A stretch of 64,000 nt of DNA from Prosopocoilus inquinatus (lineage: Eukaryota; Arthropoda; Insecta; Coleoptera; Lucanidae). Position numbers and translations under genes: made by a program. The stretch is from contig CM069873.1 of the NCBI GenBank assembly GCA_036172665.1, positions 40,394,001 through 40,458,000 on the forward strand, written 5' to 3'. The notes under the pieces were generated by a model. It searched no databases. It was given only the letters and a program-made list of their open reading frames with translations, and was not told the origin of the DNA. Of this stretch, positions 13,115 through 47,960 are shown in pieces (the first letter of the stretch is position 1; each line of letters starts with the position of its first letter).

Positions 13115-14413
13115 CGAATGGTCATGATATGTTTTAAAAAAATAACGCCATTAAAAGATCGCACAGCTAGTGCAAGCAGTCACCAATATATTGTTGAAAA
13201 TAAATAAATAATTTAATCTATTCAACAATTTGAGTTTAATTAATAGAAAATACTGTTTTCACATTGCCAGTCAAAACATAAATGTTGAATTGAATGCATT
13301 TAAAAATAATTGTTTGATTAAATCACAAAATAATTCGGTTTTTCAATTTTAAATTTTCTTTGTCATTCTTGACTTTTAGATAATAGTCGTTTATGCAGGT
13401 GATTTTATTTAATTTAGAAATAATATATGTATACAACATTCAGTATTTTGTGAGCAACTTTAATTTTTGTTTTTCTTTTCTTAGAATTGCTCTTTCATTA
13501 AAAACTGTCCAGAAAGAATGAAACTCAATTTTTAGATAAACGCTAATTTTAGTTCTTGTATTTTTATTTCATTTAGGGATTGAATTTGTTTTTTACTACT
13601 AACTGAATTATTAAGAAAAAGTTCTTTCTGAGTAGTTTTCATTACATGTGTGCACTTGTGCATTTCCAAGAAAAGCAATTAGAATATTTCAGGAACTATT
13701 AAGTTTTGTGTAATGCAACCTTACCTTTAAATCAATTGAAGGGGTCAGTGCAAGAAGTAGCTAAGTCACACTTTTATGTTTTCGAACTATTGTGACTGAA
13801 TATTTCAATATACTCCCATATTTTTATTTATTGCTCTAGGCATTTGATTTTTTTGCACACAGAGATACATTGGTGTACAATAAAAAGCCAAAGTTCAAAT
13901 TTGCTTAGGTCCTGAAAAATAATACAAAATTGTTTTGGACTTAGTCACTTTTTGCACTGAATTTCTGTGATGTCGATCATTTACAATAGATAGAAACATT
14001 TCAACGAAGAATGTTATTTTTATTTTGTTTACAAAAGTAACGTATGACTCCTTAAATCTCAAATCTCAGTCGCTTGTGCAAAAAAGAACTCACGTTTTAA
14101 CTTAGAACAGGTATACCAGTACGGCCAAATTTCATCCACTTTTTGTGCAATACTAAAGTAATATTCCGTGATGTAAGCTTTGTGTTTGTTTAAAAACCAT
14201 TTTGTAAAAGTATAAAGTAAAAATTAGTTATATTAAACTAGTGGTATAATATTTGTGTTAAGAAATGATATGCGCTATCAAGTTAACAACAATATCTGTA
14301 TTTAGCTAAGACATAAAATTTATTCGTAGCCACCTGAGAACCAGATCTTATATTATAAACAATTAAAAAATAGAGCATACGTTATAACAATTTATATTTT
14401 AACAAATTGAAGG
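13115..14413. other. No recognised feature
   Basis: AT-rich, with no coding region or repeat that I can support. Confidence 0.35.
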
Positions 14414-14415
14414 TA

Positions 14416-15364
14416 CAGGATGACTGCACGAGAATTCCTATTCCCTTTAACTCTTTTATTTTTGATTTCAGGAAATAATGTTTAATACAAAACTTATAGG
14501 GAATAATTCAAAGTTTTTCTGTGTGCTCACAGGAAAACAATCGATGGTCGGATAATCCAGATATAAACTAAACTTAATTTTTTTTTAATGAAACAGCCTG
14601 TATATTATTACGATTTTCGATTCTAAATTAAATTCTAATGAGACCACATGTATAATAAAACTAATAATGCAGAAGGTGTCTATAAAATAATTCCGATTTA
14701 ATTTATTTTATTTTTGAATTTTAGAAATAGAACACTTGAATAATGATCATTTTATACTAAGAGATGTGACTAAAAACATGCTAAAAAGATTTTCACTTTG
14801 GATAAAAAAATTGATTTGCTTTGAATATGTTTTACGTTAAATTTTCAGTTATTTTCTAAAGTTCGATTTTTCCGAAATATTTTTTGTTTCTAGTTTAAAA
14901 ATAAATTTTCAGAAAACATCTAAATCAATTTAATATGTTAATGTAAAATTTTATTTAATGTTATTTTATTGACAACCAAAACTTCGTTTATTTTTTTGGG
15001 TATCCGACTCTCAATTGTTTCTTGTGAATATCTGTAGCAGTACTGAAATAAATTCTACAACTTCTTTTATCCTTTTTCTTTCTAAAATAGATAATTAAAA
15101 AAATTAGCAGGAATTATTTTATAGACACCTTCTGCATTAGTAGTTTTATTATACATGTAGTCCCATTAGAATTTAATTTAGAATCGAAAAACGTAATAAT
15201 ATATAAGTTTAGTTTATATCTCGTTTATCCGACCATCAATTGTTTTTCTGTGAGCACACAGAGAAACTTTGAATTAGTCCTTACAAGTTTTGTATTAAAC
15301 GTTTTTTCCTGAAATAAAAAATAAAAGAGTTAAAGCCGGCAGGAATGCTCGCGTAGTCGCTTTG
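14416..15364. mobile_element. 949-bp long-TIR DNA transposon, TA-flanked
   Basis: Left end CAGGATGACTGCACGAG and right end CTCGCGTAGTCGCTTTG are inverses, each bordered by TA (14414-14415, 15365-15366). TIRs run about 250-280 bp: 14416-14697 against 15108-15364. The pair includes GTTTAATACAAAACTT, GATGGTCGGATAA and AGAAGGTGTCTATAAAATAATTCC on both sides. A single diverged arm of the same family lies at 40940-41185. The centre is AT-rich and non-coding. Confidence 0.85.
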
Positions 15365-15821
15365 TACGGTAGCGGACATTAAATCCGGAAAAGAATTTAA
15401 TATAAATAGCACGCGTATTTTGACAAATTTGATAAATCAGGCTAATAGAATTTGATACTGAAACAATTTGCGACATTCCCGTCAAGAAGCAGTTATTTCC
15501 GGGAATTAGGGGCATTTCTTGCTACTTAGCAACTTCTTGCACTGAATTGGGATTCGACTAAAATTGTTGCTGTTGCTGTTTGGTTAATTTATCGACTTCC
15601 TTCAATTGTAAATAAGCTCACGCTTCCTTAAAATATTGAAACACGCTCTATATGTGTGCGTCCACGAATCGACTTGACAAGAGGAAATATTTTTTTTTAA
15701 TTTTATGCACAAAATATCGTGCTTCTCAAGAAACTTCAGAAACAATGTTTAAATTTAAATTATGAACTACAGTCTGACTAAGAAAACAAAATTTCTTAAT
15801 CCTATGTTGCAGAAAGAAATT

Positions 15822-16277
15822 AGATTTAACCTCCTGACCACAAAAATTTATTTAAAAACTAGATGCGTATTTCGGTAGCTATGCTGCATCATCTGTAGAT
15901 GCCTTCTTCTTGATCACAAGAGAAGTGAGTTTGTCTTGCCTATCGCTACCGTATATACTAATTCGTTCCACTCCAATGAAGCGTGCTTTCTGAAGCGAGC
16001 GTCTCACTGGATTGCGTTCACCAAGTCAAACAACACGGAACCTGCCAAAGGCCCATGATCGGTGTTCATTAAATCTCTCTTATTTTTGTATATAAGAATG
16101 GTTTCAAACCCGTCTAATTTCCTGTTGCTTGACGTTTCTTTCACTAACTTAAGATTGTTTAAATCTATTTTATGACTGCTGTCAAGAATATGTTGGGCAA
16201 CACTGGATTTTTCAATTCTATTGTACTTTAAATGAGCTAAGTGTTCTTTAAAACGTATTAGTAAATTCCGTTTGATA
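15822..16277 (-). mobile_element. Penelope-like element 3' end, minus-strand copy
   Basis: The inverse of the plus-strand Penelope fragment at 16507-16962, aligning over about 455 bp. Read on the minus strand it holds the C-terminal half of the endonuclease (RFKEHLAHLKY, HILDSSHKIDLNNLK, KLDGFETILIYKNKRDLMN). The frame stays open to a stop at 16004-16006. It extends past the point where the other copy stops, with a tail reading FDLVNAIQ. The 3' untranslated region continues to the GTTAAATC block near 15830 and includes a hammerhead-like motif around 15862-15895. The 5' side is truncated next to AT-rich microsatellite. Confidence 0.85.
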
Positions 16278-16337
16278 TATTATTATTATTATATATAATA
16301 ATATATATATTATATTATTATATTATTATATTATTAT
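16274..16337. repeat. ATT/AT-rich microsatellite between two Penelope fragments
   Basis: Mixed TATTATT and ATATAT units fill the junction between the two 5'-truncated ends of the head-to-head Penelope fragments. Confidence 0.85.
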
Positions 16338-16962
16338 TTGATATATTGTTCCAAAGGTTTAAATAGCATTTTTAAAACGCAGGGGTACACAATCGCACAT
16401 ACTTTAAAACGTTTGCTGGCAAACTCTAACGACAAAACTGAACCAAATCAGAAATCAGGAATCTACGAAATATCTTGTCAAGGGTGGACTAAAAAATATA
16501 TTGCGCAAACAAAAAGAAATATACTGACACGTTTTAAAGAACACTTAGATCATTTAAAGTACAATGGAATTGAAAAATCCAGTGTTGTCCACCATATTTT
16601 TGACAGCAGTCATAAAATAGATTTAAACAATCTTAGGTTAGTAAAAGCAATGTCAAGCAACAGGGAATTAGACGGGTTTGAATCCATTTGCATATACAAA
16701 AATAAGAGAGATTTAATGAACACCGAACCTTGGTAGGTTCCCTGTTGCTTGACTTGGTGGACGCAATCCAGTGAGACGCTTGCTTTAGACAGCATGCTTC
16801 ATTGGAGTGGAACGAATTAGTATATAAGGTAGCGATAGGCATGACAAACTCACTTCTCTTGTGATCAAGAAGAAGGCATCTACCGATGATGCAGCATAGC
16901 TGCCGAAATTCGTATCTAGTTTTTAAACAAACTTTTTGTGGTTAGTAGGTTAAATCCAATTT
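16338..16962 (+). mobile_element. Penelope-like element 3' end with GIY-YIG endonuclease
   Basis: A 132-codon frame (16338-16736) covers the end of the element's protein. GIY lies at residues 41-43 and the partner motif YIA (canonical YIG) at 54-56. A conserved arginine is at 65 and FKEH at 66-69. HHIFDSSH is at 85-92, a candidate catalytic glutamate is in LDGFES (111-116), and IYKNKRDLMN is at 119-128. Penelope-like elements carry this endonuclease C-terminal to their reverse transcriptase; the reverse transcriptase is missing here, so the copy is 5'-truncated. The frame stops (NTEPW) earlier than the minus-strand copy, apparently through a frame change. The 3' untranslated region follows to about 16962 with a decayed hammerhead-like motif at 16876-16919. 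Confidence 0.85.
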
Positions 16963-19860
16963 CTTTGTACTATAAACCACGGTCTCCAATACATTTTTAT
17001 ATGTTGCAGAAATAATGATAATAATAATAAGTGGTTTTATTGCTGTATCTCTACAATAATAATCTAATTAAATATAATAACAGGAAATTTTTCAGCGGAG
17101 TTCAGAATATGCGCCAGGGCACAAATCTGCTCTTACATCCAGCTCAACTGCAAAATAACGCATTAATGGTTTTAGACGACAAATTCATTCTTCAAAAAAA
17201 TTTTACTCTCCAAGCAACTTCAAAAATGACACATGCATTTAAGTTTTTTGATTAAAGGGTGTCTGAATTATTCAAATATCTGAATTTATAGAAATAACGC
17301 ATTTGCATTCTACTCATCTTCTCTTAGAACTTTAGAAACAATATTCAAGTTTGAGCTTTGAAATACAGTGTTTCAAAATTATATATTTTTGGAGGGTTTC
17401 TTAGAATTCACTGCGCTAATAGTGTAGCCGCATCGTCGTCTTTATATTTTTTTCTCGATCTCTTCACATCTAATACTGACCCGGGTTCAACATTTTTTTT
17501 TTTTGAAAATATATAATCAGAAGGCTTCACATGACTTAATATTTTCTTTGAAAATCATTTGAAACGAAGGGAATGTAAAATATCAATAAGACGTTCTCTA
17601 TTTTAAATTATTTTCAAAGAAAATAAGACGTATTTGGTATCAGTGTACTCAGAAAAAAATGTTCTGTTGAACTAAGCTAAGAAATATATGAGGTTCTATG
17701 GAAAAAAATGAGTTAAGACCTAATGAAAATTTGAAATACTGTAAAAATGTTAAAAATCAAACTACCATCAGAAGAGTGATTTTCTCGAAACGCTTGATCA
17801 CATTAGATCGAAGAAATGCGATTCATAGCTTTCTAGATTGAAAAATAAAAAAAGTTCTTTTTCGTTGTCATGGAAACCAAAATTATTATTATGATACGTT
17901 TTCGAACTCATAATGATCCGTAAATTTCAAATATGTGAAAATATATAGGGTGTTCTATTTAAAATAAGAAAGTTGATATCACTTCCGGCGAAACCGGAAG
18001 TCCTATGACGACTAGAAGTATGTTGAAAAATTCCATTTTTTGTTTAATTTATTGTCTCCAAAATTCAGGTTAATCGATTAATAAATAAAGATTCTAGAAG
18101 GGTGAGCACATGGCGCGGGGCACCCGGTATAGCAGGAAATGTTTTTCCGAAAGTTGAGTTGAATGAATTGAAGACGAGCAAAAATTTCATCAATTCAAAT
18201 AAGTTCAAACCTGTCGTAGTAAAAACAACTTTATTTTTGGAGATAATTTGGAAATTTATGAGGATAGTTAATAAGTTGCATCTCTTTATACACATTTTAA
18301 AATAGTCGGATTTTTTGCCTCATAGAAGATTGTGTCTGAAATATTACTTCAAAATATTCTTTTGTTTTGAAGTATGTATGTACTTTTTTAACTTTAAAAG
18401 AATAAGTAAAGCTAGTGCAACTTCCAGTAAGTAAATGTAAACTTTCTTATGGTGCAATTTATAGGATTTTAAGTGTGTCAGGTTTATTCTAACTAAGTAT
18501 ACGACATTGCATTGGCCAAAAGCCAAAGTAGAAAGAAAAGCGAATTTTATGGCGTTACAAGTCGTCCATTAATTTTTTCGAGCCCTGAGCCTGTTATTTG
18601 TACTCATCGGGGCATTAACATTCGAAACCGTTCGGAAAACTTTAACGAAAAATGAAAAATCGAACGCGCTTCGACTTTTGCCCGTCTATTCTATAAGAAA
18701 CTTATTTGTATTCCTTCAGAAAATCTAGATATAACAATAAATACTTCGCGGTTGAATGCGCTAGTCTCATAACTCAGTCCATCGGCTTTCACAGTTTCCT
18801 CCGAGCTGGCTTCTTTTTTCATTATTGCATAAAGTAAAAGAGATTAATCTTGTTTAGAAAATTACAGTGATTTTTTATTTAGGTACGGTGGAGAAATATT
18901 GTTCTCTTTAGAAAGGGACGTAAAAGATGACACCGAATGGCTCCCTTGAAAATACCAACAAGTGGATCGGTGCTAACTTAGTCGTAAAGTGCATCCCTTT
19001 ATACTCCGAATAACTCTACGAATCGATACGTATCAATTATTTACTGGGCAGATTGTTATAGAATTATTCAAGAACAGTTGACACTTTGGAAGGTTGTTTC
19101 GTGATGCACTTTATATGGACATGGTTTCTTTTAGAATAACAATAGCAAAATTCAACAAAAAACACAAGTTGCAAATCATTTTTGCATTATTCTACTAACG
19201 CTTATAATTAAAATTTGAATAATAGAAAAGTAGTTGAAAAGTAGCAGGTCCATCAATTAACACAAATTTTCCATTAAAACATAGATGGCAGGTATCCGTA
19301 GACTAAAAGAATCGATTTATATTTACAAAAAAAAAGACCAAAATGTATTTCCGGCAACCTACTTTTCAAACAAGAGGGCTTTTAAAATAATGCAGAAAAA
19401 AAAGGTGTTCCTGTTAGTTTGAACAAATAAACGAAGCACAATAATTAAACCTGACACAAAGTATATTAATTGTGTCTCTCACCCTAAAAGCTATTCGACT
19501 TCCCTGATAAAGACTTAGAGCCCTTTTATCCGTTGGCAATCTAATTATGATATTGTGGTTATGTTGGCAAATATAATTGGATTCCAAGAACTTGGGACGG
19601 AGTTTAGAATATGCCGGCAATCCCATACATGCTTTATAACTTAATATTAGGAGATGGATTTCCTGCAAAGTGACTAACAAACTAGCAACAGCTAATAATC
19701 CTTAATTATGTCTTTCACGGCGCTTTAAAACAGAATCTCGCATGAATTTTTAAAGGAGCTATTAAAACATAATTGCCGGCTTCATTACTTCCTGCAGTGA
19801 AACACTTTTGCGAAAGTACAAATGGCTAATTTTGATTTATATTTTATTAGGTTCGAGTCA
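16963..19860. other. No supported gene; minor repeats only
   Basis: Contains an AATAAT run near 17020, an inverted pair at 17535-17555 and 17610-17627, and a perfect small hairpin ACTTCCGG/CCGGAAGT at about 17980-18001 downstream of a TATAGGGTGTTCTATTT motif. That motif resembles the end of a mariner-type MITE whose other end I could not locate. Confidence 0.35.
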
Positions 19861-20067
19861 TTTACATAGTACAGGGTCTTCATTAATTAAATGTACCACA
19901 CGTGACTAAGTTTTATACGATATACAAGTAACAATACATATTGCTGTTTTCTGATTATTGTAAGAATACGTACGGTTTTATTTAATCATTTAGAAGTTAC
20001 GTATTTAGGATATGGTTGTAGTAAAAAATTTCTTTTTTCCAAAATTTTAATTTTAAAATTACTTAAA

Positions 20068-20262
20068 TTAACGACATCCCACAATTGCTTTTTCACCTGA
20101 CATCCTAATGCAATATCAGGTCAAAAAATCGCAGGATGTCGCTATTTAAGTTTTTCATTACTTTTACATCACAATCTTCGGATAAATCGTTTTGGTTTGC
20201 AGTGGAACTCTCGAGCTACAGCTTCTGCTGACGAAGCCCCAAATAAGGTTGAAACAACTGTA
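20068..20262 (+). mobile_element. Hammerhead-ribozyme element, copy 1, decayed
   Basis: A 5' hairpin (GACATCC... paired with ...GGATGTCGCT, about 20070-20145) is followed by the TTACATC...AATCGTTTTGGTTTGCAGTGG linker and then the ribozyme core CTGACGA at 20228-20234. GAA is at 20251-20253. Stem III (ACAACTGT) has lost its palindrome and stem II is weakened. The 3' half of stem I is missing: a TA at 20261-20262 leads straight into CAGGGTGACC, apparently the end of a mariner-type MITE. Confidence 0.65.
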
Positions 20263-20547
20263 CAGGGTGACCCAACGATAAAGTATTTTATACTAGATGA
20301 CACGCGGGATAAAATTATTTTGAACTATTGTGCAGAGTAATTGGAATGCAACTGAGAGCCATATGTTTTTGTCGGCTGATGCATATTGGAAAAGCTTGCA
20401 ATCCCGAAGCAACGCCACTCATGTCCAAATTGAATTGTGTTACCAGAGACAGTAAAGTAGAATTTAGAAAGCAAAAAATAAAAAATTATTTTGAACTATT
20501 CAGAGCGATCAGAAAAATGGCGTTTTTTTTTTTAATGGAATACCCTG
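20263..20547. mobile_element. Candidate mariner-type MITE interrupting a hammerhead element
   Basis: It begins CAGGGTGACCC after TA and ends ATACCCTG before TA. The internal arms hardly match beyond these termini, so the pairing of the two ends is uncertain. It encloses the retro-insert at 20330-20481. Confidence 0.4.
20330..20481 (+). mobile_element. 152-bp retro-insert with 19-bp target-site duplication
   Basis: The segment lies between two perfect copies of AAAATTATTTTGAACTATT (20311-20329 and 20482-20500). It ends in an A-rich stretch (GCAAAAAATAA), and it is identical by eye to 24799-24950. A long duplication and A-rich 3' end indicate LINE-type target-primed insertion of an RNA copy. 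The 5' end is truncated relative to the longer unit near 24.7 kb. Confidence 0.85.
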
Positions 20548-20879
20548 TATATTTTTAGATATTTGGATGCACCGCAGTGAGCTGATTACCACGGCATAAA
20601 GATATATTGATTTTATAGAACTACTTTCGTAAAATAATTTTTATTTTGAAAAATTCTTCAAAAATTCAGGTAGTTTGAATATGAATTTCTGATTACTGAG
20701 TTAACACAGAGAAACGAAAATCTAACACGATATTTTTAGGACTTTGGCCTTTATAAAAATGTGAACAAAATTAAGATATCTTTTTGCATTATACCGAGCG
20801 ATCGATACTTACGTCACATTGGGTATCTCAACTATCTTAACTTCTTCTTTAATTAATACCTATAGCTTCTTAAAAAAAT

Positions 20880-21178
20880 TTCTTGCAAATCGTTTTTGAT
20901 TGCAGTGAAAACCTCGAGCAGTCTCTGTACAGCTGTTTCAGCCCTGCTTGGGGCTTCGTCAGCAGAGACAAATTGAAGCGGATTTGCTCCTAATAAGTCC
21001 CCCATGCAAGGCGGCCATGCTTGCTGTCAAAGCATAATGAAAGTTTTAAAAAATTTTCTTGCAAATCGTTTTATTATTATTATGTTATTAGGAGCAAATC
21101 CGCTTCAATTTGTCTATCCTACTGCAATGTCAGGTCAAAAAGCGATCGTAAGATGTCGCTTTTTTATCTGTTTATAGC
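20880..21178 (-). mobile_element. Hammerhead-ribozyme element, copy 2, rearranged
   Basis: On the minus strand this holds an intact hammerhead (20921-20969) with the element's 3' tail (20880-20920). It is fused to a second module bearing a 30-bp perfect inverted repeat at 20966-20996 and 21084-21115 (ACAAATTGAAGCGGATTTGC and onward). The module also carries the 5' block GACCTGACATTGCAGTAGG and GCGACATCTTACGATCGC in inverse form near 21116-21160. A partial duplicate of the 3' tail (TTGCAAATCGTTTT) occurs at about 21060-21073. The arrangement suggests template switching or nested insertion. Confidence 0.75.
20921..20969 (-). ncRNA. Type I hammerhead ribozyme, all core residues present
   Basis: Minus-strand reading, in order. 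Stem I strand GTCTCTG is at 20969-20963. The core CTGACGA is at 20962-20956. Stem II AGCCC/GGGCT with a six-base loop is at 20955-20940. GAA is at 20939-20937. Stem III is the palindrome ACAGCTGT at 20936-20929. The cleavage nucleotide A is at 20928, and the second stem I strand CAGAGAC is at 20927-20921. Stem I pairs over all seven positions. The first stem II pair is A-U rather than the usual G-C. A loopless stem III cannot fold well in a monomer but pairs between two RNAs, as reported for Penelope-type hammerheads. Predicted cleavage is 3' of 20928. Confidence 0.8.
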
Positions 21179-21179
21179 T

Positions 21180-22647
21180 TCTTAATTAATAAAAATTATA
21201 AAAATGTAACTTTATTATTAAATAAACTCTAAGTTTATCAAAACCACCATTCATAAAATGAATATGTTAATCTGTTTCCTAGTTTTATTTTTATTAGTAG
21301 GCGGTGCACAACGTCATGAAAACCTATTTTTGGGCATTTAAAAGAAAAAATGAAAAACTTTAACGTTACTACATTTTTTAAAATAGTTGTTTATTATACA
21401 GCAGTGTTCAATTAACTCATAAATGCCTCAAATTTGAATTTGAATCGTAAAATATTACTGCAGGGAGTTAGTTTTGCTTGTTAATTAATTTCGCTTTAAA
21501 CTCTTGTAACTTTTTAGTTATTGTTTTTTTACCAAAATTAGCTATCCTTTTAATCTCCTCCGTACGTTATGAGACACCCAGTGTAATAATATGATTAGCA
21601 GAACTGCAGCAGCATTAAACCTAGTTACTAATTTTTCACAACTCCGATCAAAGGCTTGACCAAGGTTTGGTAATTTTTTAATTCATCGTAGACCATCTAA
21701 AATACAGAATTAAATGAAGATACGATACAAAGTACGTAGTATCGTTATGAAAAAAATGTATTCAATACTTTTTAAAGATGTTATATAAATTCAGCATTAC
21801 TATTGTGAGTGTTTTGTCTTCTTGACTTTTGACTTCTCATTTTTATTATTTTTCGTGCTTTTTATCTTATACTGGGAGTGTCAGAAATAGTATCTATTCG
21901 TTATACGTCATATATACTAACCAATCCGACTCTAAAATCACAAATAAAATTATTTTTAAGATGGTTATTTTTCAAATTACAAATGAGTATAAATCTAGAG
22001 AACACTTCATTTACTGCAAAAATATTTATATGAACAAACAGTTATTTAATCAAATTTCAAGAGTGAAGTATAAACTATGAAACCGCCGTTTTATAATAAT
22101 TTCATTTATAAAACATGCATTAACGATAAAAAAAGGCAAGCAATTTATATAAGGTCGAAGTGTTAGATAACGTTATAAAAATGTTAAGTAACACTAAGCG
22201 TTAATAACGAAATTAATTAATTCGGAACAAAAAGCGCTGTCTGGCGGACTTAGCGTTCGAATACCATCAAACGAAATTGAATTAACTGATTTTTTCCTCC
22301 TTTTTTTGGAAGCGAGCTTCAACCCCGTTCCGGGGAGTGAAAGGCCGGAGCTGAAAACCGGGTGTACCTCAACTGTTTGGTTGTAAATATTAATTAGATG
22401 CCGAAACCACGTGAAGTTTACGCTTTGTAAATACGAAAGCAGTAGAAACTCTATGGTAACCGCGAATTATACATAAATGTCATTTAGTTCATAGAACATG
22501 TAATATGCTCCGGGAGTGCCTCTTTCTTGCTTTGAATTTCTTTTGCCAATTCCAATTATTTTGGTCTTAAACACGAAAAACAAAACAATGCAAAACACCG
22601 TCTTAGATAGTACGTTTCATTAAAAACTAAAATAAAATAAATAAATA
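21180..22647. other. Unassigned, with one dispersed repeat
   Basis: 21878-21990 (TATCTATTCGTTATACGTCA onward) matches 58775-58890 inside the hAT-type element near 58 kb, so it is a diverged transposon piece. A slightly GC-richer patch lies at 22305-22375. No gene is supported. Confidence 0.45.
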
Positions 22648-22649
22648 TA

Positions 22650-24582
22650 CAGCGTGGAAACTAAGTAGCGGATAAAATCCATAACTCCGCTAATATTTGT
22701 AATAAAGCAAAAATCTAAAAGGGGTATAGCGATTCAAATTACAGCGCATAAGAAGAAGTATATTTTGAGATATTTTCATGAATTTTTTTAAGTTATGACG
22801 TCACCAAGATTTTTTTTTAATGACAACCTATATTTTTTATTTTTTATTTCGGTGGGATTCTTTAACCTGCTTTCACCAGTATAAAATTTTGGATCGATTA
22901 CATAACAAAAAATTCAAGAAAAACGGCCATAAAAATTTATTTGTAAAGTTGAAGAAATAAACAGAACATCTAGTTAGCTAGGTTTAAAACGAAACAAAAT
23001 TAAGGTGAAAATAAACAAAATTTGATTTTAACAGTCATTGAAATCACAATAAATGTTCAAACTGACGACCATGCACCAACTGACAATACCCAAGACGCTC
23101 ATAAAATTCATTTATTACATTTTGAATAGTTTGAGGTGTTATTAACCTACACTCCTGTATTCTTTCTTTAAGATCGTCTAAGTTGTTAGGTCTATTTTTA
23201 TACACCTTGCTTTTTAAGTACCCCCATAGAAAAAAGTCTAATGGCGTTAGATCAGGGGATCTAGCTGGCCATTCCATTGGACCTCTTCTTCCTATCCATC
23301 TACCTGGGAACATCTCGTCCAAATAACGTCGCACATCCACTGCGTAGTGTGGCGGAGCACCGTCGTGTTGCATCCAAATGTTATTGTTTGGTACGTCACA
23401 GTCATTTTCATTAGGAAATAATATCGCCAATGCAGGTACTAATTCGAATTGTAAGAAGTGTAGATATTTCTCACCAGTTAAATTACCTTCGATAAAGAAT
23501 GGACTTAAATTCTGTCACCGACAATTCCTGTCCATACGTTGAGCTTCTGGGGATGTTGAGTATGAGCTTCTTGCATCCAGTGGGGATTTTCCCTAGACCA
23601 ATATCGACAATTATGTCTGTTAACAGTTCCATGTAAAGTAAAACTTGCCTCATCAGAAAAAATTATACCCTGCGAGAACATTGGATCACGATTGCAAATT
23701 TCCAACATTTCTTCACAAAATTCTTGTCTATGATCATAGTCAGTTTCTGCTAACTCATGGACTAATTTTACTTTATACGGATGAAACTTGCATTTTTAAA
23801 AGTTTCAGTACCGAGTTATGGCTCAGGTTGTGCTCTGAAGCAATGTCTCGACTAGTCGAATACGGATTATTTTCTATTTCTAGTAAAATATCAAGCTCCA
23901 CATCGTCAATTAATTTTGTCTTAGGGTGGCCAGTTTTTGGAAGGTCTTTCACAATACCGTAATTTCGAAATTTATTTTCTATTCTGCTGACTGTGGATTG
24001 ACTTATTTGCTGATCAGGATATTTGTCTATAAAAAGTCGACAACCTCTTGATGAGTTCTAATTCGATCGCCATACCCAATCATCATTAGAACTTCAATTC
24101 TTTGTTTTTCAGTCAGCAACACCATTTGGGTAAAAGGTTTTTAATAATTAGTGTAACTCCTACTATCCACAGGGAATAAAAATACTCACTTTATTGTGAT
24201 AGGTATTTACAAGTTCTTGTCAATCAAACAAATTTTATTTGTTTTACACCTAGCTAACTAGATATTCTGTTAATTTCTTCAACTTTACAATTAAACTTTT
24301 ATGGCCGTTTTTCTTGAATTTTTTGTTATATAATCGATTCAAAATTTTATACTGTTGAAAGTAGGTTAAAAAAACCCACCGAAATCAAAAATAAAAAATA
24401 TAGGTTGTCATTTAAAAAAAATCTCGATGACGTCATAACTTAAAAAAAATTCATGAAAATATCTCAAAATATACTTCTTCTTATGCGCTGTAATTTGAAT
24501 CGCTATACCCCTTTTAGATTTTTGCTTTATTACAAATATTAACGGAGTTATGGATTTTATCCGCTACTTAGTTTCCACGCTG
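22650..24582. mobile_element. Mariner-like transposon, DD41D type, ~341-bp TIRs
   Basis: Termini are CAGCGTGGAAAC and its inverse, bordered by TA (22648-22649, 24583-24584). TIRs are 22650-22990 and 24241-24582 and differ at only a handful of positions plus short homopolymer indels. That points to fairly recent insertion. The interior encodes one transposase on the minus strand (23044-24125). Total length is 1,933 bp. TIRs of this size are unusual for the superfamily, where 20-30 bp is common. Confidence 0.92.
23044..24125 (-). pseudogene. Transposase of the DD41D mariner-like element, three frameshifts
   Basis: Starts at ATG 24125 and ends at TGA 23044-23046, about 360 codons if the frame were continuous. 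N-terminal part: a helix-turn-helix region (QRIEVLMMIGYGDRI, then QQISQSTVSRIENKF) followed by a GHPK linker. Catalytic core: first aspartate in IIFSDEASFTLHG (about 23650-23620), second in WMQHDGAPPH, third in LTPLDFFLWGY. I count 41 residues between the second and third, so it is a DD41D type rather than the DD34D of classical mariner. Single-base frameshifts lie near 24040, near 23795 (in an A run) and near 23508, so this copy makes no full protein. All three catalytic aspartates remain. The enzyme family cuts and pastes DNA into TA sites. Confidence 0.9.
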
Positions 24583-24599: not shown

Positions 24600-24953
24600 A
24601 TTTAATAAATTTAAATCAATCGGCAGTCTGGGCACTCGCATTTCAAATAATTCACTACCAACAGCTTTCAGTAACGAATTTCCAAATATCTCAAAGTCAA
24701 TTATTATAAAATCATCCACGGCTTCAATTGAAAAACATTTGCCCGGTTGGAATCAAGCTCGCAACTTTCTTTGCCCGAAACACAGCGCGCTGCCAATTGT
24801 GCAGAGTAATTGGAATGCAACTGAGAGCCATATGTTTTTGTCGGCTGATGCATATTGGAAAAGCTTGCAATCCCGAAGCAACGCCACTCATGTCCAAATT
24901 GAATTGTGTTACCAGAGACAGTAAAGTAGAATTTAGAAAGCAAAAAATAAAAA
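24600..24953 (+). mobile_element. Longer copy of the 152-bp retro-inserted sequence
   Basis: 24799-24950 is identical by eye to the retro-insert at 20330-20481. This copy extends further upstream, and both share the same A-rich 3' end, the pattern expected of 5'-truncated retrocopies of one RNA. An open frame runs through it and stops at 24924, ending CYQRQ; I recognise no domain. It could be a SINE-like unit or the terminal exon of a transcribed gene that served as template. Its own insertion borders are unclear. Confidence 0.55.
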
Positions 24954-27247: not shown

Positions 27248-27625
27248 AAGGAATTCGTTCGCCGAAATGTTAGCAGATGGCGATGGCGATGGTTTCGAAA
27301 ATCTTCAATGAAGATCACAGAGGATAAATTAAAAGAATGATGACGTGACTTTATGTCAACGAAAATATCAAAATTCGGATAAAACGAGATTCCGAATGCA
27401 AAGAATTCACGGAATTAATTCGTAGACACATAAACAGATAGCGACGGTATTCACAATAAATGTCGAAAGCAAATTAATTTGAATAAAAATTGTGAATTCA
27501 AGGAACAGTTCACCGAAACGTATACAGATGGCGCTAACAATATTATTTCCAACTAAAGCAAGCGAATTCAAGAAATCGGTTCGCCGAAACGTACACAGAT
27601 AGCGCTGACGATGGTTTCTAAAATC
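27248..27625. repeat. Tandem repeat with GTTCGCCGAAACGTACACAGAT motif
   Basis: Related units recur at about 27252 (TTCGCCGAAATGTTAGCAGA), 27415, 27508 (TTCACCGAAACGTATACAGA) and 27580 (TTCGCCGAAACGTACACAGA). A further diverged unit lies at about 28825, beyond the LINE. Spacing varies from about 75 to 160 bp. The CR1-like LINE seems to have inserted within this array. Confidence 0.6.
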
Positions 27626-27639
27626 CTTGATGAAAAAAG

Positions 27640-28760
27640 AGACGGCAAACTCAGAAATGAAGTATACCTCGACGTTATACATTTATTTGGTAAGTCCAAT
27701 GACTGCACGTTACTACAAAATATATTAAATTTAAAAATTAAGGATGCCAAAATTCCGTTGCATAATGAAGCTAAAAATTTAGGACTAGTTATTGATAATT
27801 CTTTTAGATATCGTGCTCATGTTAAAAATATGACAAAGAAAGCCTACTGTAATTTAAAACTTGTTTACCCATATAGACGCTATTTATCTGTAAGTACGAA
27901 AATTTTGCTCTGTGATTCCCTAGTTCTTTCGCAGTTAAATTACTGTTCTGAAATTTATGGACCTTGTTTAACACAGGACAGTATTGCTCAAATCCAAAGA
28001 GTCCAGAATTTATGTTTACGGCTTACGTATGGTATTCGTAAATATGACCACATAACATATAAATTAGGAGAAGCTGGCTGGTTGAATATGTCTAGCAGAA
28101 GAAGGCTATTAACCTCATCTCTCTATCATAGAATTATCATAGATCAGATGCCGCTTTATCTTTACAGGAAAATTAAATTTCGTACTGATATTCATAATGT
28201 CAATATTAGATTCAAAGGAACACTTACGCCACCTATCCATAAAAGTACGTTATTGAAACGTTCATTCAGGTATCAAATATCTTACGTGTATAATTCAATT
28301 CCTGTTTCTTTTAAAGGTCTTTCCTCAGCCATGTTTAAAAAACGGTTTCGTAGTTATTTATTTCAACGTCAATAATGTAGATACATTCTTTGTAAATATT
28401 TTACATCCTCCATGTAACTCTATATCTGTACAGCAGTATGTACGTCCCAGAATGTTATTATTTGTTTCATTATCTCCTTTTTCCATTAATTTGTGTTAAT
28501 TTTAGGCTTGCGGGATGAATAGTCAATACATTCTAAAATTTCTTTAGTTAATTAACATAATAAGTTAGTCTTAAGCATCACACTCGGTTGTTTTTTTTTT
28601 TTTTTGTAATTTCATTTCTAGGTTTCGGTGGAAGATTAATCTCAGCTTTTGCTGTGTATTGAACCGCACCTAGTGGTTTTCAAATTTCTTTGTTTTAATT
28701 ATATTGTTTCAACACGCATTTAGGTTTAAAAAAAAGATTATTATTATTATTATTATTATA
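27640..28760 (+). mobile_element. CR1-like LINE, 3' part, open frame preserved
   Basis: A 5'-truncated non-LTR retrotransposon. The coding part ends at TAA 28373-28375, then about 360 bp of 3' untranslated sequence ends in an ATT microsatellite at about 28737-28759. This tail type is usual for CR1-group LINEs. It sits within a tandem repeat, with a further unit on its far side. A T run near 28590 lies in the untranslated region. Confidence 0.8.
27661..28375 (+). pseudogene. C-terminal reverse-transcriptase region of CR1-like LINE
   Basis: The frame is open from the repeat array into the LINE, so its first residues are not part of the original protein. Recognisable parts in order: HLFGKSNDC, KNLGLVIDNSFRYRAHV, ILLCDSLVLSQLNYCSEIYG, QRVQNLCLRLTYGIRKYDHI, AGWLNMSSRRR, and the C-terminal MFKKRFRSYLFQRQ. 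This is the thumb and C-terminal part following the catalytic domain; the catalytic YADD box is absent by truncation. A related, more decayed protein is encoded on the minus strand at 54083-54505, sharing QNSCLRFIYGIPRR and EAKWLNM. It cannot make an active polymerase but has no internal stop over about 240 codons, which suggests a young copy. Confidence 0.8.
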
Positions 28761-38144: not shown

Positions 38145-39635
38145 AGAACGTAGAACGTGGTTTTTGGAGATATGGAAAACAGCGCGGAATAATGAGAAAA
38201 TCCCTAAAGAATGAGAGGAGAATCTAATAGTTCCCATACAGAAGAAAGAAAGTAAACTCAAATGCGAAAATTACAGAGCGATTAGTCTGGCGTCCTCAGA
38301 ATTTAAAGTATAGGTGCACAAAACAGTAGAAGAAAAGATCAGAAAATTCATGGAACAGAAAACAGACGAAGAATGGACAGATTTTAGAAGAGGAAGAACC
38401 TACTGAACAATATCTTTGTAATAAGAAACCTGTTAGAAAAAAGGAGGCCAACGAAGAATTATTTATTTCATTTAAACATGTAAAAGCAGCATTTGATATT
38501 GTAGAAGAAGTCAGTGCTATGGGGAATAATGTAACAGATGGAATCTCGAAAAAAATGGCTAGAATAGTTAACAGTAGTTATTTAAAAATTTAGTTGCAAA
38601 TTGTTTTTGATTGCAGAGAAAACCACGAGTAATATTAAATGGGGAAAGTCTGGAAAATTTGATATGAGAAAAGAAATAAAACAGGGAGACAGTGTTAGCC
38701 TACTACTATTTAATGTTTACATTAATAACGGACAAGATATTTAAAAACAACACAAGGAAAATAACAGGAAGACTCCAGAGGACACAGACAGTTGCTACTG
38801 ATTCAACCGAATAAAATGCTATACCAGATGATATAGTACCAGTCGTGGACACAAGGGAAAAATGAAGCCACTGGACAGAAGAGATAGAAAAAATGAAAAT
38901 GGAGGTCAATAAAGGAAAAACTAAATACATAATAATAAATCAGAAAACACAAATGGAGGCAGAGGGAATAAAACGCAAGGGACAACAAATAAAACAAGTA
39001 ACAGCATATGAATACCTAGGAGTTATGATATTAGAAGATGGGAAGATAGACCTAGAGATAGCAAACAGAGTAAGGTAAACCACAAAAATATATTACGCTC
39101 TGAGTAATGTTATATTTGGAAAAAAAAGAGTTCGAAACAAAAGTAAAACTCCAGGTATACAACAAACTAGTAGTACCGACGCTATTATACGGGGTGAGTA
39201 CAAACAAATACGAGAGTATGGCGACAGCAATAGAGATGGAACAATTGAGAAAATAGTAGGGTAGACAAATATGGTTAGAATAAGAAATGACAGCATCAGA
39301 CAGCAATTAAATCAAGAAGATATAGAAAGGAAGGTAAACAAGATAACATTAAACTGGTTTGGACATGTGACTTGAATGGATAACACCCAACCTGGCGAAA
39401 TAAAGCAGTGGAAGCAGGGACACAAAGAAGAAGGAGGGAGACCGAGAAGTACATGGATGTAGCGGCTAGAGGAGATAGGAAGGCGATAGGGAAAAACACT
39501 AAAGGAATTTTTCACTAATTTCAATTACTGGCCAGTGAACGGAGAAAATGGAGGAGATGGAAGAAGAATAAACAAGAATATCCGATGCCCTCACGGGCAA
39601 AAGAAATAAAACAAGAAGAAAAAGAAGAGATCTGA
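38145..39635 (+). pseudogene. RTE-like LINE reverse transcriptase and C-terminus, heavily broken
   Basis: Short frames keep the order of an RTE-type element. It starts at WFLEIWKTARNNEKIPKE (about 38158), then LIVPIQKKESKLKCENYRAIS (about 38225-38290), then FDMRKEIKQGDSVSLLLFN (about 38660-38715). A degenerate catalytic box reads IPDDIVP (about 38819-38840; FADD or YADD is expected). Next are KMEVNKGKTKYIIINQKTQ, YEYLGVMILEDGKID (to 39078), and YYALSNVIFGKK. The end holds RIRNDSIRQQLNQEDIERK, ITLNWFGHV and a tail rich in RRKWRRWKK and PMPSRAKE. Numerous stops and frameshifts make it inactive. A piece resembling the hammerhead-element tail interrupts it near 38590-38632. Confidence 0.82.
38590..38632 (-). 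mobile_element. Fragment of hammerhead-element 3' tail inside the RTE remnant
   Basis: TTGCAAATTGTTTTTGATTG and the following CAGAGAAAACCACGAG match the tail module seen at 20884-20918, in the same orientation. The fragment stops before the ribozyme core. Confidence 0.6.
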
Positions 39636-40809: not shown

Positions 40810-40905
40810 TCCCTTGTTGAAGAGGCCCCAAATAAGGCCGAAATAGCCGTATAACAGGTGCTCAGGAGATCTACTGCAATTGAAAGTGACGTGCAACTAA
40901 TTTTT
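40810..40905 (+). mobile_element. Decayed hammerhead-element copy
   Basis: TTGAAGA in place of CTGANGA at about 40817, stem II GGCC...GGCC, then GAAA, TAGCCGTAT and a GTGCTC...CTACTGCAATTGAAAGTGACG tail. The layout matches the intact ribozymes but key residues are lost. Confidence 0.55.
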
Positions 40906-40939
40906 TGGATCTCAGTTTAATTCAACAATTGGTAAGCAC

Positions 40940-41170
40940 AGGGCAACTACGTGAGAATTCCTTCCTGCTTTACCTCTTTTATTTTAGATTTTAGGAAAAG
41001 ATGTTTAATACAAAACTTGTAATAGGACTAATTCAAAGTTTCTCTGTGTGTTCATAGAAAAATAAATGATGGTCGGATAAATGAGATGTAAACTAAACTT
41101 AGGTTTTTTTAAATGGTACACCCTGTTTATTATTACTTTCGATTCTAAATAAAATTCTATTGGGATTATA
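40940..41170 (+). mobile_element. Single arm of the 14.4-kb long-TIR family
   Basis: CAGGGCAACTACGTGAGAAT through ATGATGGTCGGATAAATGAG and on to the CCCTG near 41130 matches the TIR of the element at 14416-15364. The second arm is missing. Confidence 0.7.
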
Positions 41171-42455: not shown

Positions 42456-44337
42456 TTTACAGAGTGTAATAAAAATACAAGCCGTTACTTCAAGGACATA
42501 TTCTACAAAGAGAAAATTTCATATAAACATGTACACAGAGTGTTCATGGGAAGCCGCAACAATAGTTAACTTTCTTAATTGAATTTTTACGAAGTTACTT
42601 ATATTGGAAAAGTTTCAGGACCTTTCCTGTCAAGTTATATGGCAATATGGGAAAACAAATGACTATCAGGTTTTTGAAATTTTCAATTGTATCAATCGTT
42701 ATTTATTCCTCTTTATTCCTCAAAAAGATAAGTATAAATAAGTATAAAAAGAAAATAGTTTCAACTTTAATATCGGATATTCAATGAGCCCATCGGCTGT
42801 TTCCAGACATGCAAGAATCCACATCAGATTTTCACGCTCCCTTGAGTCTTGTCTGCATTCTATTTTGTCATTAAAGCGAAATTTATTTATGACTACAAAA
42901 TTCAACATTCATTTTTATGTTTATTTTTGTATTGATTTAGCTTCGTTTATTTGTCTTATGGAAGGGGCAGTAAACGTACGAAATATTTGGTAGTTTTGTG
43001 TTACATTTTAAAAGTCCCTGACAAAAAGCTACATCTAACCAAATGCTTACAGGAAACCTCATTATTTTCAAAATAGGGAAAGTATGGAAATTAAAAAATG
43101 TGAGAAGAGAGAATAAATACGAAATATTCTAATATATTTATTACTGGCAAGAAAAACGTTTGGAGAATTTTAAATTTCTTAAAGAAAAGTCAAGGTTTAT
43201 CTCGCGCCAAGTTCACCAATATTCCACTGTTTAAAAATTGAGGGTTTTCCAGGAAACTTTGTAGGAACTGTCTATAAATAATTTAATAGGTATCGAAATT
43301 TGAATTTCAAGAACTTTGAAATTAGAAAAAAAAATACAACTTGTATTGTACTTCAATGTACTTTATCAGGTCGTAATTTCACAATTTTGCACAAAGGAAA
43401 GCGGCAGCCATCAAAAAAATTTACAGCCTCTTTGGTAACGCCCCGCCGTCGCGCTCATTTAACAAATCCCAGTTAAAGAATAGAGTGCGCTATTTGCGGT
43501 TCTAGAAATAATAGAAAAAGTTAGCTCACGTATGAATACGCTTGGTTATAATTTCTAAATTTTCTTGTGCTATTGTCTAATAATATCCTACTGCAATATC
43601 AGCTCAAAAAGCGATCGTAAGATGTCGCTTTTTATCTATTCAATTAAGGTTACTAAATCAACACACTTACGTGTTCAGGTAACGTCATTACATTCCTATT
43701 CCGAGATTCTTGTGTAACAAAGATAAATGTCGCAAGAGCAACAAGGAACTCAACACTTTTAGGGAATTCTGTTTACTACGATGATAGTAGTTTATAGCCG
43801 ACTGTCTAGTCAAAAATGTATTAGGTTATGTTATTCTCCGCAGCCATAGTAAAATGCCATTTGTGAAACGTCACTTTGATTAACAAACTTTCGACTGTGT
43901 TTTTTTATCCCTAGACGAAATTACTATGCGACAAGGACAGATAGAAAACATCACTAATGTCGCTACCGGAACACGAAGTGTGTCGATTTAGAACCTTATA
44001 TTCAATAATATTAAAGGATTTCTCTTTCTGTTACGTACGACGGAGTATAAATTAATCCGCATGGACTCAAACATTTTTATAAATTGATTGGAGGCGTTTT
44101 TATGCCCAAGTTAGGATTTCCTTGTAAAAATGCCGCTATTACTTCTGATACTGCAATTTCATTGTGCAACTACGACTTGATAAAATACAACTTACTATAT
44201 ATGTTGACCTTTTAGCATTTTATTACTAGTTAAGAAAAATAATATTTTAAACTCAGTCAATATTAAAAATGAGTTTAAATATTTCAGATATACTGAATAA
44301 TTAATTAATTAGAATTAGAAACTTCATGTCCAATAGG
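42456..44337. other. Unassigned; one hammerhead-element 5' module at 43588-43636
   Basis: CCTACTGCAATATCAGCTCA and the following AAAAAGCGATCGTAAGATGTCGC match the 5' hairpin strand of the hammerhead elements. The remainder has no supported gene. Confidence 0.45.
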
Positions 44338-44789: not shown

Positions 44790-44945
44790 AAATGTATTGC
44801 AGACTGTGGTTTGTAGTACAAAGATTACTGGATTTAACCTCCTAACCACAAAAAAAAAATTTAAAACTAGATACGTATTTCGGCAGCTGCCATCTTCAGT
44901 AGATGCCTTCTTCTTGATCACAAGAGAAGTGATCCCTTGTGATTA
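44790..44945 (-). mobile_element. Penelope-like element 3' UTR fragment
   Basis: The inverse of 16870-17005, including GATCAAGAAGAAGGCATCTA and ACTACAAACCACAGTCTGCA. It carries the best-preserved hammerhead-like motif of the three Penelope copies. Confidence 0.8.
44867..44902 (-). ncRNA. Hammerhead-like motif in Penelope 3' UTR
   Basis: On the minus strand: CTA (44902-44900), core CTGAAGA (44899-44893), a GGCAG/CTGCC stem II with an extra U, GAA (44881-44879), palindromic stem III ATACGTAT (44878-44871), cleavage nucleotide C (44870), then TAG pairing with CTA. Stem II has lost its loop and the base next to the core is not a standard pair, so activity is doubtful. The equivalents at 16890 (CCGATGA) and 15880 (CAGATGA) carry core changes. 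Confidence 0.5.
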
Positions 44946-44962
44946 AATCCAATTTTCTTAAA

Positions 44963-45212
44963 CAGATAAAACAGTGACATCCTACGATCGCTTTTTGACC
45001 TAACATTGCGATCGTAGGGTATCACTGTTTTATCTGTTCATCACTATTACATCGCAAATGCGAATAAAATGGACAAGTCGTTTTTGGTTTGTAGTGGGAA
45101 TGTCCAGCTACGTCTCTGCCGATGAAGCCCCAAACAGGACTGAAACAGCTGTACAGAGGCTGCTCGAGGTTTTCACTGCAATCAAAAACGATTTGCAACA
45201 AATTTTTTTTAA
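44963..45212 (+). mobile_element. Hammerhead-ribozyme element, copy 5, most complete monomer
   Basis: Order along the unit: a 5' hairpin at about 44965-45042 (AAACAGATAAAACAGTGACA and its inverse), the linker CATCACTATTACATCGCAAATGCG, the ribozyme (45112-45160), and the tail CACTGCAATCAAAAACGATTTGC ending in a T run. About 250 bp in all, with no coding capacity. The order is the same as in copies 1 and 6. Confidence 0.75.
45112..45160 (+). ncRNA. Type I hammerhead ribozyme, one core substitution
   Basis: GTCTCTG (45112-45118), CCGATGA (45119-45125; consensus CTGANGA, so the U is changed to C), stem II AGCCC/GGACT (45126-45141), GAA, ACAGCTGT (45145-45152), cleavage nucleotide A (45153), CAGAGGC (45154-45160). 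The extended stem I pairs GTAGTGGGAATGTCCAGC with GCTCGAGGTTTTCACTGC. The core change probably abolishes or greatly slows cleavage. Confidence 0.7.
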
Positions 45213-45390
45213 ACTTCCAATTTTCTTAGTTTAAAACACGTCGAAACAGTTGCACGTTTTGACTGAAAGCGTTTCGTAGTTACGTCATTCAGATTTGTCA
45301 TCTCTAATCAATATGATTCAGGGGACAAAACATGCTCTTTAATTTATATGTCGGAAGTAAAATATTTTAGAGTACGCTTTTCGCTTGTTT

Positions 45391-46857: not shown

Positions 46858-47404
46858 TATCATTGCCTGTAAAACGTCTTTCAAAATAATAATAAAGTGA
46901 AACTAAGAACGTTTTTAATTCATTGCTCTGGAGCAGGATAAGCGCCTCAGAATGTCCCCACTCTCGATTGTTTGAGAGAATCCAGACTTAATTAATACAG
47001 AGAGGTATCCGGCAAATAAATGCAACCGTCGCAGCAGCTTTCTTAAGTAACGGTATAAAGAACAACTCAAATCTACTCCTGCTCTCTTGTGGACTAGATT
47101 TGAGTTTTTCTTTTTATTTTTAACTAGTGACTTCACTATGAGCTATAGAAGTGGCTCTTCTATATCTTTATATAAAATTTCAAAACAGCCTTATTTACAA
47201 CTAAAAAAACCCGGCTAATCTAAGTAACTGCTGAGAACTGTTTCCATTTCGATGTGTTTTTGTCCCCAGAATCGAATCCGTACTCGTACGAGTATTAGTT
47301 TTGAGTCAGCCTATTCAGAGTTATTACTAATTAACCCCATAATGGGGCTTACGTAAACTGTAAGAGATACAAAAGGGGCTAATCTGTATCGAGTACGTTA
47401 AATT

Positions 47405-47700
47405 TGAACATATAAAATAGCGACATCTTACTATCGCTTTTTGACCTAACATTGCAGTAGGATAGACAAATTGAAGCGGGATTTGCTCCTAATGAGTCCC
47501 CCATGCAAGGCGCCATGCTTGCTGTCAAAACATAATGAAAGATTTTAGAAAAATTTTGTGCAAATCGTTTTTGATTGCAGTGAGAACCTCGCCGCCTTGC
47601 ATGGGGGACTCATTAGGAGCAAATCCCGCTACAATTTGTCTATCCTACTGCAATGTTAGGTCAAAAAGCGATAGTAAGATGTCGCTATTTTATATGTTCA
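47405..47700. repeat. 108-bp near-perfect inverted repeat within a hammerhead element
   Basis: Arms 47405-47512 and 47593-47700 are inverses with a single mismatch (GAAGC against GTAGC). The 80-bp spacer contains a piece of the element's 3' tail (GCAAATCGTTTTTGATTG, about 47560) in the orientation opposite to the true tail at 47836-47868. Two inverted pairs are therefore interleaved in this locus. Confidence 0.9.
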
Positions 47701-47880
47701 TCACTCTTACATCGCATTTGCGAATAAATTGAGCAAGTCGTTTTTGGTCTGCAGTGGGAATGTCGAGCTACGTTTCTGCTGAAGAAGCCCCAAGCAGGGC
47801 TGAAACAGCTGTCCAGAGGCTGCTCGAGGTTCTCACTGCAATCAAAAACGATTTGCACAAAATTTTTTTGTTAAATTTAA
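47701..47880 (+). mobile_element. Hammerhead-ribozyme element, copy 6
   Basis: It continues from the inverted repeat: linker CATCACTCTTACATCGCATT, the extended stem I strand, the intact ribozyme (47772-47820), and the tail ending ATTTGCACAAAATTTTTTT. The element's usual 5' hairpin has been replaced by the enlarged inverted repeat. Confidence 0.78.
47772..47820 (+). ncRNA. Type I hammerhead ribozyme, intact core with GUC site
   Basis: Stem I strand GTTTCTG (47772-47778), core CTGAAGA (47779-47785), stem II AGCCC/GGGCT with a six-base loop (47786-47801), GAA (47802-47804), palindromic stem III ACAGCTGT (47805-47812), cleavage nucleotide C (47813), stem I strand CAGAGGC (47814-47820). The triplet before the cut is GUC, the best known hammerhead site. 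Stem I extends through TGCAGTGGGAATGTCGAGC (47749 on) pairing with GCTCGAGGTTCTCACTGCA (to 47840). The loopless palindromic stem III favours a two-molecule (dimer) ribozyme. Predicted cleavage lies between 47813 and 47814. Confidence 0.85.
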
Positions 47881-47960
47881 AGGTATGTTGCTATGGTAAC
47901 AACCAATCATAAAGCTTTTTGATTGGTTGTTACGATAGCAACAGTCCGTTAAATTTAAAG
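47871..47960. mobile_element. Tiny hairpin MITE between TTAAATTTAAAG copies
   Basis: Arms GTTGCTATGGTAACAACCAA (47887 on) and its inverse (to 47942) pair over 23 bp. TTAAATTTAAAG lies on both sides (47871-47882, 47949-47960) and may be a target-site duplication. Confidence 0.7.

Follow-up and report, generated by a model that had tools for sequence, protein, structure and literature searches.

The window, by which we mean the whole 64-kb stretch of DNA that was analysed, carries a type I hammerhead motif at positions 47772–47820 of the forward strand. All of its parts can be read directly from the letters in the expected order: GTTTCTG, the catalytic core CTGAAGA (47779–47785), stem II as AGCCC-CAAGCA-GGGCT, GAA, the stem III palindrome ACAGCTGT (47805–47812), C, and CAGAGGC, with the cut predicted between 47813 and 47814. 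On its own the palindrome forms 2 bp and a tetraloop, and between two copies it forms 8 bp. The motif has the features that define the type, namely the core CUGANGA...GAA, H17, and three stems of which stem I is open, and the hammerhead with its GUC site and stems is present as the original prediction had described it. The further claim that stem I extends past seven bases agrees with the predicted fold of the 169-nucleotide sense arm, in which pairing continues far beyond them. Judged from the letters, 47772–47820 is a real hammerhead-ribozyme motif, from which we infer ribozyme activity.

At the Rfam gathering threshold, no family was reported. When the motif alone was searched (96 bases), the top entry of 4227 families was RF00163 Hammerhead_1 (23.8 bits, E 0.0004), and its alignment to 47772–47820 runs over the full length with no pair broken. 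A covariance-model search had been proposed as a check on the motif; Hammerhead_1 did come first, but its 23.8 bits are under the gathering score of 34, and the type I claim therefore rests on the core and the stems and not on Rfam. The sole hammerhead entry in a 2.5-kb search was HH9 (14.5 bits, E 7), and Rfam support for the motif is therefore moderate. Rfam microRNA matches over 47.4–47.9 kb were rejected, being far under their gathering scores and on inverted repeats. A descriptor that required the core together with at least four, three, and two pairs in stems I, II, and III, respectively, found three sites in the window (47779–47813 and 20228–20262 on the forward strand and 20962–20928 on the reverse strand), and it matched twice per 100 windows simulated with a first-order Markov model. 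Core plus stem III ACAGCTGT alone does occur by chance and is not rare, with 58 exact matches in a large collection of viral contigs; stems I and II of at least three pairs were found in none of the 58. Pattern scans of these contigs for relatives of the motif gave 0 matches in one case and the 58 chance-like matches in another.

The motif belongs to a repeated unit whose copies in the window are dispersed, with no tandem array. The insertion that contains it, c47, has a sense arm at 47593–47869 (forward strand; unit positions 37–313, ending at the start site marked by a T-run) and an antisense arm at 47405–47591 (reverse strand; unit position 144 down to 1 and then across the unit junction to 269), and the arms are identical at 150 of 151 shared positions. 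Its target-site duplication, GTTAAATTT at 47397–47405 and again at 47870–47878, is 9 nucleotides long (12 with one mismatch) and weak (29 of 3000 random pairs equally good), and it adjoins a hairpin repeat with similar ends. This 88-nucleotide hairpin repeat (47871–47958), with arms 89% complementary, lies directly beside the insertion. The insertion c45 (44958–45213, forward strand) consists of an antisense arm at 44958–45009 followed by a sense arm, and is bounded by a perfect 13-nucleotide duplication, TCCAATTTTCTTA, at 44948–44960 and 45216–45228 (1 of 3000 random pairs equally good). The insertion c20m (20872–21175, reverse strand) is likewise bounded by a perfect 13-nucleotide duplication, TTAAGAAGCTATA, at 21173–21185 and 20861–20873 (3 of 3000), and contains a second complete hammerhead at 20921–20969 on the reverse strand, with the cleavage triplet GUA and a Hammerhead_1 score of 21.8 bits. 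The layout had been said to recur at 20.9 and 45.1 kb; the 20.9-kb copy is indeed complete, but that at 45.1 kb (hammerhead-like at 45112–45160) keeps the layout with its core changed to CCGATGA. An older, truncated insertion, c20p (20064–20265, forward strand), has a weaker hammerhead at 20221–20269, and a decayed copy at 40810–40906 (forward strand) has the core TTGAAGA. Two reverse-strand fragments were placed by mapping to the unit, one at 43584–43643 with an end at the start site near position 145 and one at 38584–38629 with an end at the start site near 313. When a covariance model was made from the five copies in the window, it recovered them at 64.8–76.7 bits, by construction.

In c47, c45, and c20m, an antisense arm from one common start is followed by a sense arm that ends at the T-run. 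In c47 and c20m, the T-run is directly followed by the start of the next unit, which gives a unit of 313 nucleotides; a reading of the 3' T-run as that of a Pol III SINE was rejected because both insertions read through it. The unit combines this size with a type I hammerhead, low G+C, and no recognized protein, and in these respects agrees with metazoan non-LTR retrozymes (unit of ~150–450 nucleotides). In the tripled c47 unit (47405–47869), the longest stop-free sense stretch has 105 codons. Matches to the 29-nucleotide stretch from stem II to stem III, with at most three mismatches, number 22,151 (11,021 + 11,130) in the 649.6-Mb assembly, and the reversed pattern has none. Among the 100 exact places listed, 21 pairs of neighbours lie within 1 kb, of which 17 are in the order minus-plus, 0 in the order plus-minus, and 4 on the same strand; the same-strand neighbours are 311, 312, 312, and 624 bp apart, corresponding to one and two units.

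The arrangement was examined in all 78 loci formed by the 100 listed exact hammerhead matches, which cover the first 6.4 Mb of one contig and contain 80 insertions, two loci (L100 and L129) carrying two each. Sixty-seven of the 80 are head-to-head, antisense then sense, and so lack the head-to-tail tandem repeat of metazoan retrozymes; eight are sense only, two antisense only, and three of more complex structure. Outer ends are concentrated at unit positions 136–156 and 300–313/1–21. The pairing of outer starts is 145 with 313 in 61 insertions, 313 with 313 in one, and 145 with 145 in one, the other 17 having an end that is missing or elsewhere. After correction for the duplication, the edges of 48 insertions lie at 136–146 (mode 142) and at 308–313 and 1–11 of the next unit (peaks at 311 and 3–6). 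The insertions thus show the marks of the Penelope-type mode: opposed arms, single use of each of two start sites, and a target-site duplication. Five two-armed insertions from outside the exact-match listing (L078, L175, c20m, c45, and c47), a small set comprising those with both ends readable among the 19 clusters listed, all fit the two sites within ~11 nucleotides, as does a sixth at L074 864–1116, which lies next to a listed insertion. Single-arm pieces, with L106 as an exception, mostly terminate at one or other of these sites. A 12-nucleotide duplication was found in only 1 of 10 single-arm insertions, which may therefore be truncated or have formed otherwise.

The duplications are narrowly distributed in length. 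Among the 61 insertions with mixed starts, the longest edge duplication measures 12 nucleotides in 31 and 13 in 14, and it is at least 11 nucleotides in 50, compared with 2.5% of 1187 pairs with swapped flanks. In the 48 insertions with duplications of 11–14 nucleotides, the target is symmetric, AAC-N12-GTT, and base composition is alike on its two sides. The base frequencies outside the duplication are A 0.77, A 0.71, and C 0.44 on one side and G 0.46, T 0.69, and T 0.67 on the other; AA occurs at −3/−2 in 29 of the 48 (3–8 at other offsets) and TT at +2/+3 in 23 (1–12 elsewhere). When the motif was anchored on raw BLAST ends, no clear signal was obtained, even for the retrozyme. The geometry suggests that nicks at the edges of the duplication would leave two 12-nucleotide 3' overhangs, one for each outer end of the insertion. 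At least two terminal bases of the overhang agree with the template in 20 of 48 cases at the 145 site (4.8 expected) and in 9 of 48 at the 313 site (4.4 expected).

A second, larger element in the window has a comparable structure. The insertion at 15816–16999 (forward strand) comprises two head-to-head arms that are ~90% alike and is flanked by the 13-nucleotide duplication TATGTTGCAGAAA at 15803–15815 and 17000–17012; the end of one arm is ~34 nucleotides longer, so that the two ends correspond to start sites without and with a tail. Although its frames read as GIY-YIG-like by eye, Pfam matched none of them, and the GIY-YIG-like piece had no homologue. In the longer frames of relatives, RVT_1 scored 28.4 bits in L160 (cut-off 29.6) and GIY-YIG 27.0 bits in L163 (cut-off 22.6), and NCBIfam gave weak reverse transcriptase and group I intron endonuclease matches only. 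Of the 49 homologues found with the L160 frame, 6 have both reverse transcriptase and GIY-YIG domains and 14 are named Aromia moschata. Judged from these frames, 15816–16999 and its relatives are assigned to the Penelope-like elements, which are recognized by reverse transcriptase and GIY-YIG in one open reading frame. The retrozyme differs in that no such frame is present in its window copies, and its 313-nucleotide unit is too small to hold one.

Further Penelope-like loci were obtained by a DNA search in which 40 of 1836 candidates were scored, and 35 stretches were taken around the scored places. The sample left out a pair at C5:31.1 Mb that resembles a copy of the window insertion; this pair (G000:C5:31144973-31146114; 92% and 100% matches) has the spacing of window positions 15819–16960, lies 9.3 Mb away, and is probably a duplicated segment. 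Of the 16 head-to-head insertions, including the window copy, 12 have each outer end within the 3' zone and 4 have an end elsewhere. Eleven of the 12 pair a start at 663–670 with one at 695–699; the other, L176, pairs 664 with 666. Duplications of 9–13 nucleotides flank 9 of the 12, compared with 2 of 240 swapped pairs, and the nine sites anchored in this way match AAC/GTT partially, with G at +1 in none. The retrozyme and Penelope-like insertions of this genome thus follow the same two-start rule, although the two starts are ~145–170 nucleotides apart in the former and ~30 in the latter.

Hammerhead-like motifs lie just upstream of the start sites in these Penelope-like elements, as in systems with pLTR hammerheads. 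In the search with the five-copy model, 44863–44906 (reverse strand; 17.2 bits, E 0.038) ranked sixth after the five model copies, and 15855–15902 (reverse strand; 12.0 bits, E 0.95) and 16876–16923 (forward strand; 11.0 bits, E 1.8) took the seventh and ninth places with scores that are not significant. The predicted cut of the Penelope-like motif is 50–54 and ~81 nucleotides upstream of the two start sites, and one retrozyme start is 54–62 nucleotides downstream of the hammerhead cut, so that both families have a start 50–62 nucleotides downstream. Stem III of 44863–44906, ATACGTAT, is also palindromic. These minimal motifs, situated in the element's 3' part, have a stem II that is mismatched at its base.

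Animal retrozymes have been described as tandem repeats with type I hammerheads that are expressed as circles and for which Penelope-like elements are candidate helpers (PMC7229834, PMC7761336). The original prediction had pointed to Penelope-like elements and metazoan retrozymes, a suggestion that the repeat family and the Penelope-like parallel support. In common with the non-LTR retrozymes of coral, mussel, and axolotl, as PMC7229834 presents them, the family has the type I hammerhead, a unit within 170–400 nucleotides, low G+C, no recognized coding, target-site duplications of more than 4 bp, and Penelope-like elements alongside. It differs in that those repeats are described as head-to-tail tandems, whereas here there is mostly one head-to-head insert with two fixed starts and a 12–13-nucleotide duplication, and the published model names candidate helpers only (PMC7229834). 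According to a 2020 review, retrozyme repeats have no conserved motif by which the machinery could be identified (PMC7761336). Among the matches listed in a search of the open-licence literature, no report of such an insertion structure for retrozymes was found.

The closest parallels in structure are the Penelope-like elements with pLTR hammerheads of anole and Adineta, which share head-to-head ends, a single tail, AT-rich targets, and target-site duplications (PMC11167929, PMC3846280). The Adineta insertions have head-to-head ends with an optional tail on one and duplications of 8–10 bp, and were explained by self-priming (PMC3846280). The anole protein, once purified, was able to cut and extend each of the two target strands; it began internally at two neighbouring sites, which correspond to the tail, showed a preference for ATT, and is a predicted dimer (PMC11167929). 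Other results of the in vitro experiments described there weigh against the reading proposed below: hammerhead mutants did not alter insertion, reads neither started nor stopped at the cut, and the two target strands were alike in start site (PMC11167929). By analogy, the pattern observed in this genome is what an enzyme of the anole type would leave if each overhang primed its own cDNA.

The motif is thus probably the hammerhead of an abundant non-autonomous retrozyme whose circular (or multimeric) RNA is reverse-transcribed by machinery of the Penelope type, starting at each 3' end of a staggered break. Transcripts containing two direct hammerheads would be cut by ribozymes paired through the stem III palindrome, and the resulting 313-nucleotide RNA would be ligated into a circle. 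A dimeric endonuclease/reverse transcriptase of the Penelope type would then cut both strands to leave 12-nucleotide 3' overhangs, each of which would prime a separate antisense cDNA with retrozyme RNA as template, one per start site; synthesis would sometimes make more than a single circuit. Finally, the two cDNA ends would be linked, in many cases at short matches, and would be filled in. The joins in 64 two-armed insertions overlap by at least 2 nucleotides in 39 (76 of 270 simulated blunt joins) and contain 3–19 extra bases in 12 (12 of 270 simulated). With somewhat less confidence, we favour the broader proposal that Penelope-type integration is in general a symmetric, two-ended target-primed reverse transcription by a dimer, with 12-nucleotide 3' overhangs and two fixed RNA sites, and that retrozymes are its parasites by way of rolling-circle reverse transcription. 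If true, the two-ended reading would account for the inverted pLTRs and the "tails" of Penelope-like elements and would name the enzyme that spreads animal retrozymes. The insertions number in the thousands, each with two starts, a join, and a duplication, and they make both the retrozyme enzyme and the origin of the inverted Penelope ends testable; they also record reverse transcription of a small RNA over lengths that exceed one unit.

The first step of this scheme, cleavage by paired ribozymes, is consistent with the predicted folds. The minimum-energy fold predicted for the isolated c47 motif (−16.9 kcal/mol) is not a hammerhead, since stem III is paired there with a portion of the core, whereas the hammerhead fold is at −10.9 kcal/mol; the predicted fold of the single motif within the 169-nucleotide sense arm is also not a hammerhead. 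For two c47 copies, the prediction is a double hammerhead with an 8-bp stem III shared through ACAGCTGT (−37.7 kcal/mol), and the 20.9-kb copy behaves alike in prediction (−20.0 kcal/mol alone, −14.7 as a hammerhead, and −45.3 as a double hammerhead). The folding model thus suggests that a single motif would misfold and that only a pair joined through the palindrome would adopt the (double) hammerhead. Because the predicted fold of the isolated motif is not a hammerhead, a negative assay of the monomer would not refute the ribozyme. Dimeric action of hammerheads with palindromic stem III is described as established in newt and suggested in Aedes (PMC3088659). The likeness to these lies in a palindromic stem III/loop III able to pair between two ribozymes; their host element differs from the unit here, in which dimer activity is a prediction (PMC3088659).

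The template left its own record in the arms. In 64 two-armed insertions, 92 of 128 arms run across the hammerhead cut, 58 run across the unit junction, and 2 end exactly at the cut, which means that a cut linear monomer did not usually serve as template. Read-through RNA that was linear and multimeric could have taken this role, with no circle and with the hammerhead incidental. We regard this as unlikely, although direct hammerhead repeats 311–312 bp apart, which could be transcribed, are present in 9 of the 78 loci and the anole enzyme inserts RNA without hammerhead cleavage in vitro (PMC11167929). Most insertions contain fewer than two direct units, and linear copying of these should erode the arms in each round, yet 28 of 116 arms exceed one unit (the longest has 733 nucleotides, or 2.3 units). 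By this reasoning arms longer than one unit would arise most easily through a circle, and metazoan retrozymes are described as circles (PMC7229834).

The enzymes might come from a LINE and not from a Penelope-like element, the insertions being products of ordinary twin priming. A LINE fragment is present in the window at 27611–28372, and its homologues carry RVT_1 (the four named among 46 are from Callosobruchus). Like Aromia moschata, which is named among the Penelope-like homologues, Callosobruchus is a beetle, and the host insect is probably a beetle as well. L1 twin priming also yields inverted 5' arms, the likeness being that the second target strand primes a second cDNA. L1 twin priming is occasional, however, with a variable priming site and target-site duplication, and the narrow 12–13-nucleotide stagger, the symmetric site, the prevalence of two arms, and the two fixed internal starts, together with a two-start rule shared with the Penelope-like insertions of the same genome, make a LINE source improbable.

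It is slightly less probable still that the motif is a dead relic without present ribozyme activity. Cores or stems are damaged in three of the five window copies, and covariation gives no support: it was not significant among the five (three pairs changed on both sides, a number reached in 126 of 500 shuffles), and no excess was found in the 125 fetched copies (49 distinct rows). Such a null result is expected for young or neutrally decaying copies but provides no independent proof of ribozyme function. Against a relic stand the two complete window copies, the 22,151 near matches in the genome, and the ~96% likeness of the fetched copies.

An origin of the second arm by snap-back, in which the first cDNA or an antisense transcript folds back and primes it, was the reading given to the Adineta palindromes by their authors (PMC3846280) and would suit insertions such as c47 with long, near-perfect inverted arms. 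We consider it very improbable here. The inner ends of the two arms lie within 15 nucleotides of each other in 7 of 64 insertions, with 6.7 expected, and the independence of the stops is an argument against snap-back; nor does snap-back predict a fixed second start, yet 145 is paired with 313 in 61 of the 63 insertions whose two ends both fall at these sites.

Two copyings of one source probably account for the relation between the arms. In 58 two-armed insertions with both sites, the arms measure 41–599 nucleotides from 145 (median 191) and 67–733 from 313 (median 220). Agreement between arms of the same insertion exceeds the mean agreement with other insertions in 43 of 50 cases (97.8 versus 96.1%), a modest difference because many arms are 100% identical to some other insertion, and in c47 and c45 the variants private to each insertion, relative to the other window copies, are common to both arms; one RNA source was therefore probably copied twice. 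That an inverted master copy is instead transcribed and reinserted as such, with later palindrome deletions producing the differences, has in its favour the layout common to all four window copies with readable heads, but it is the least credible of the alternatives, given that the lengths of the arms differ greatly and show no correlation (r 0.12), that some arms exceed one unit, and that arms are closer within than between insertions and share private variants.

Several minor features were seen alongside these elements. The insertion at L126 1237–2153 comprises a retrozyme insertion followed immediately by an antisense Penelope-like segment and could be chimeric or nested. L083 and L114 share 36 nucleotides of flank up to approximately the insertion point, indicating either one repeat targeted twice or a duplicated locus. 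In the window, the LINE pieces and most transposase pieces were not recognized by Pfam; broken frames at 23044–24057 on the reverse strand resemble a mariner-type transposase by eye, and one piece has HTH-type Pfam matches. A perfect 158-nucleotide direct repeat occupies 20327–20484 and 24796–24953, and an arm of the long foldback repeat at 14395–15367 recurs at 40918–41111, just downstream of the decayed 40.8-kb copy.
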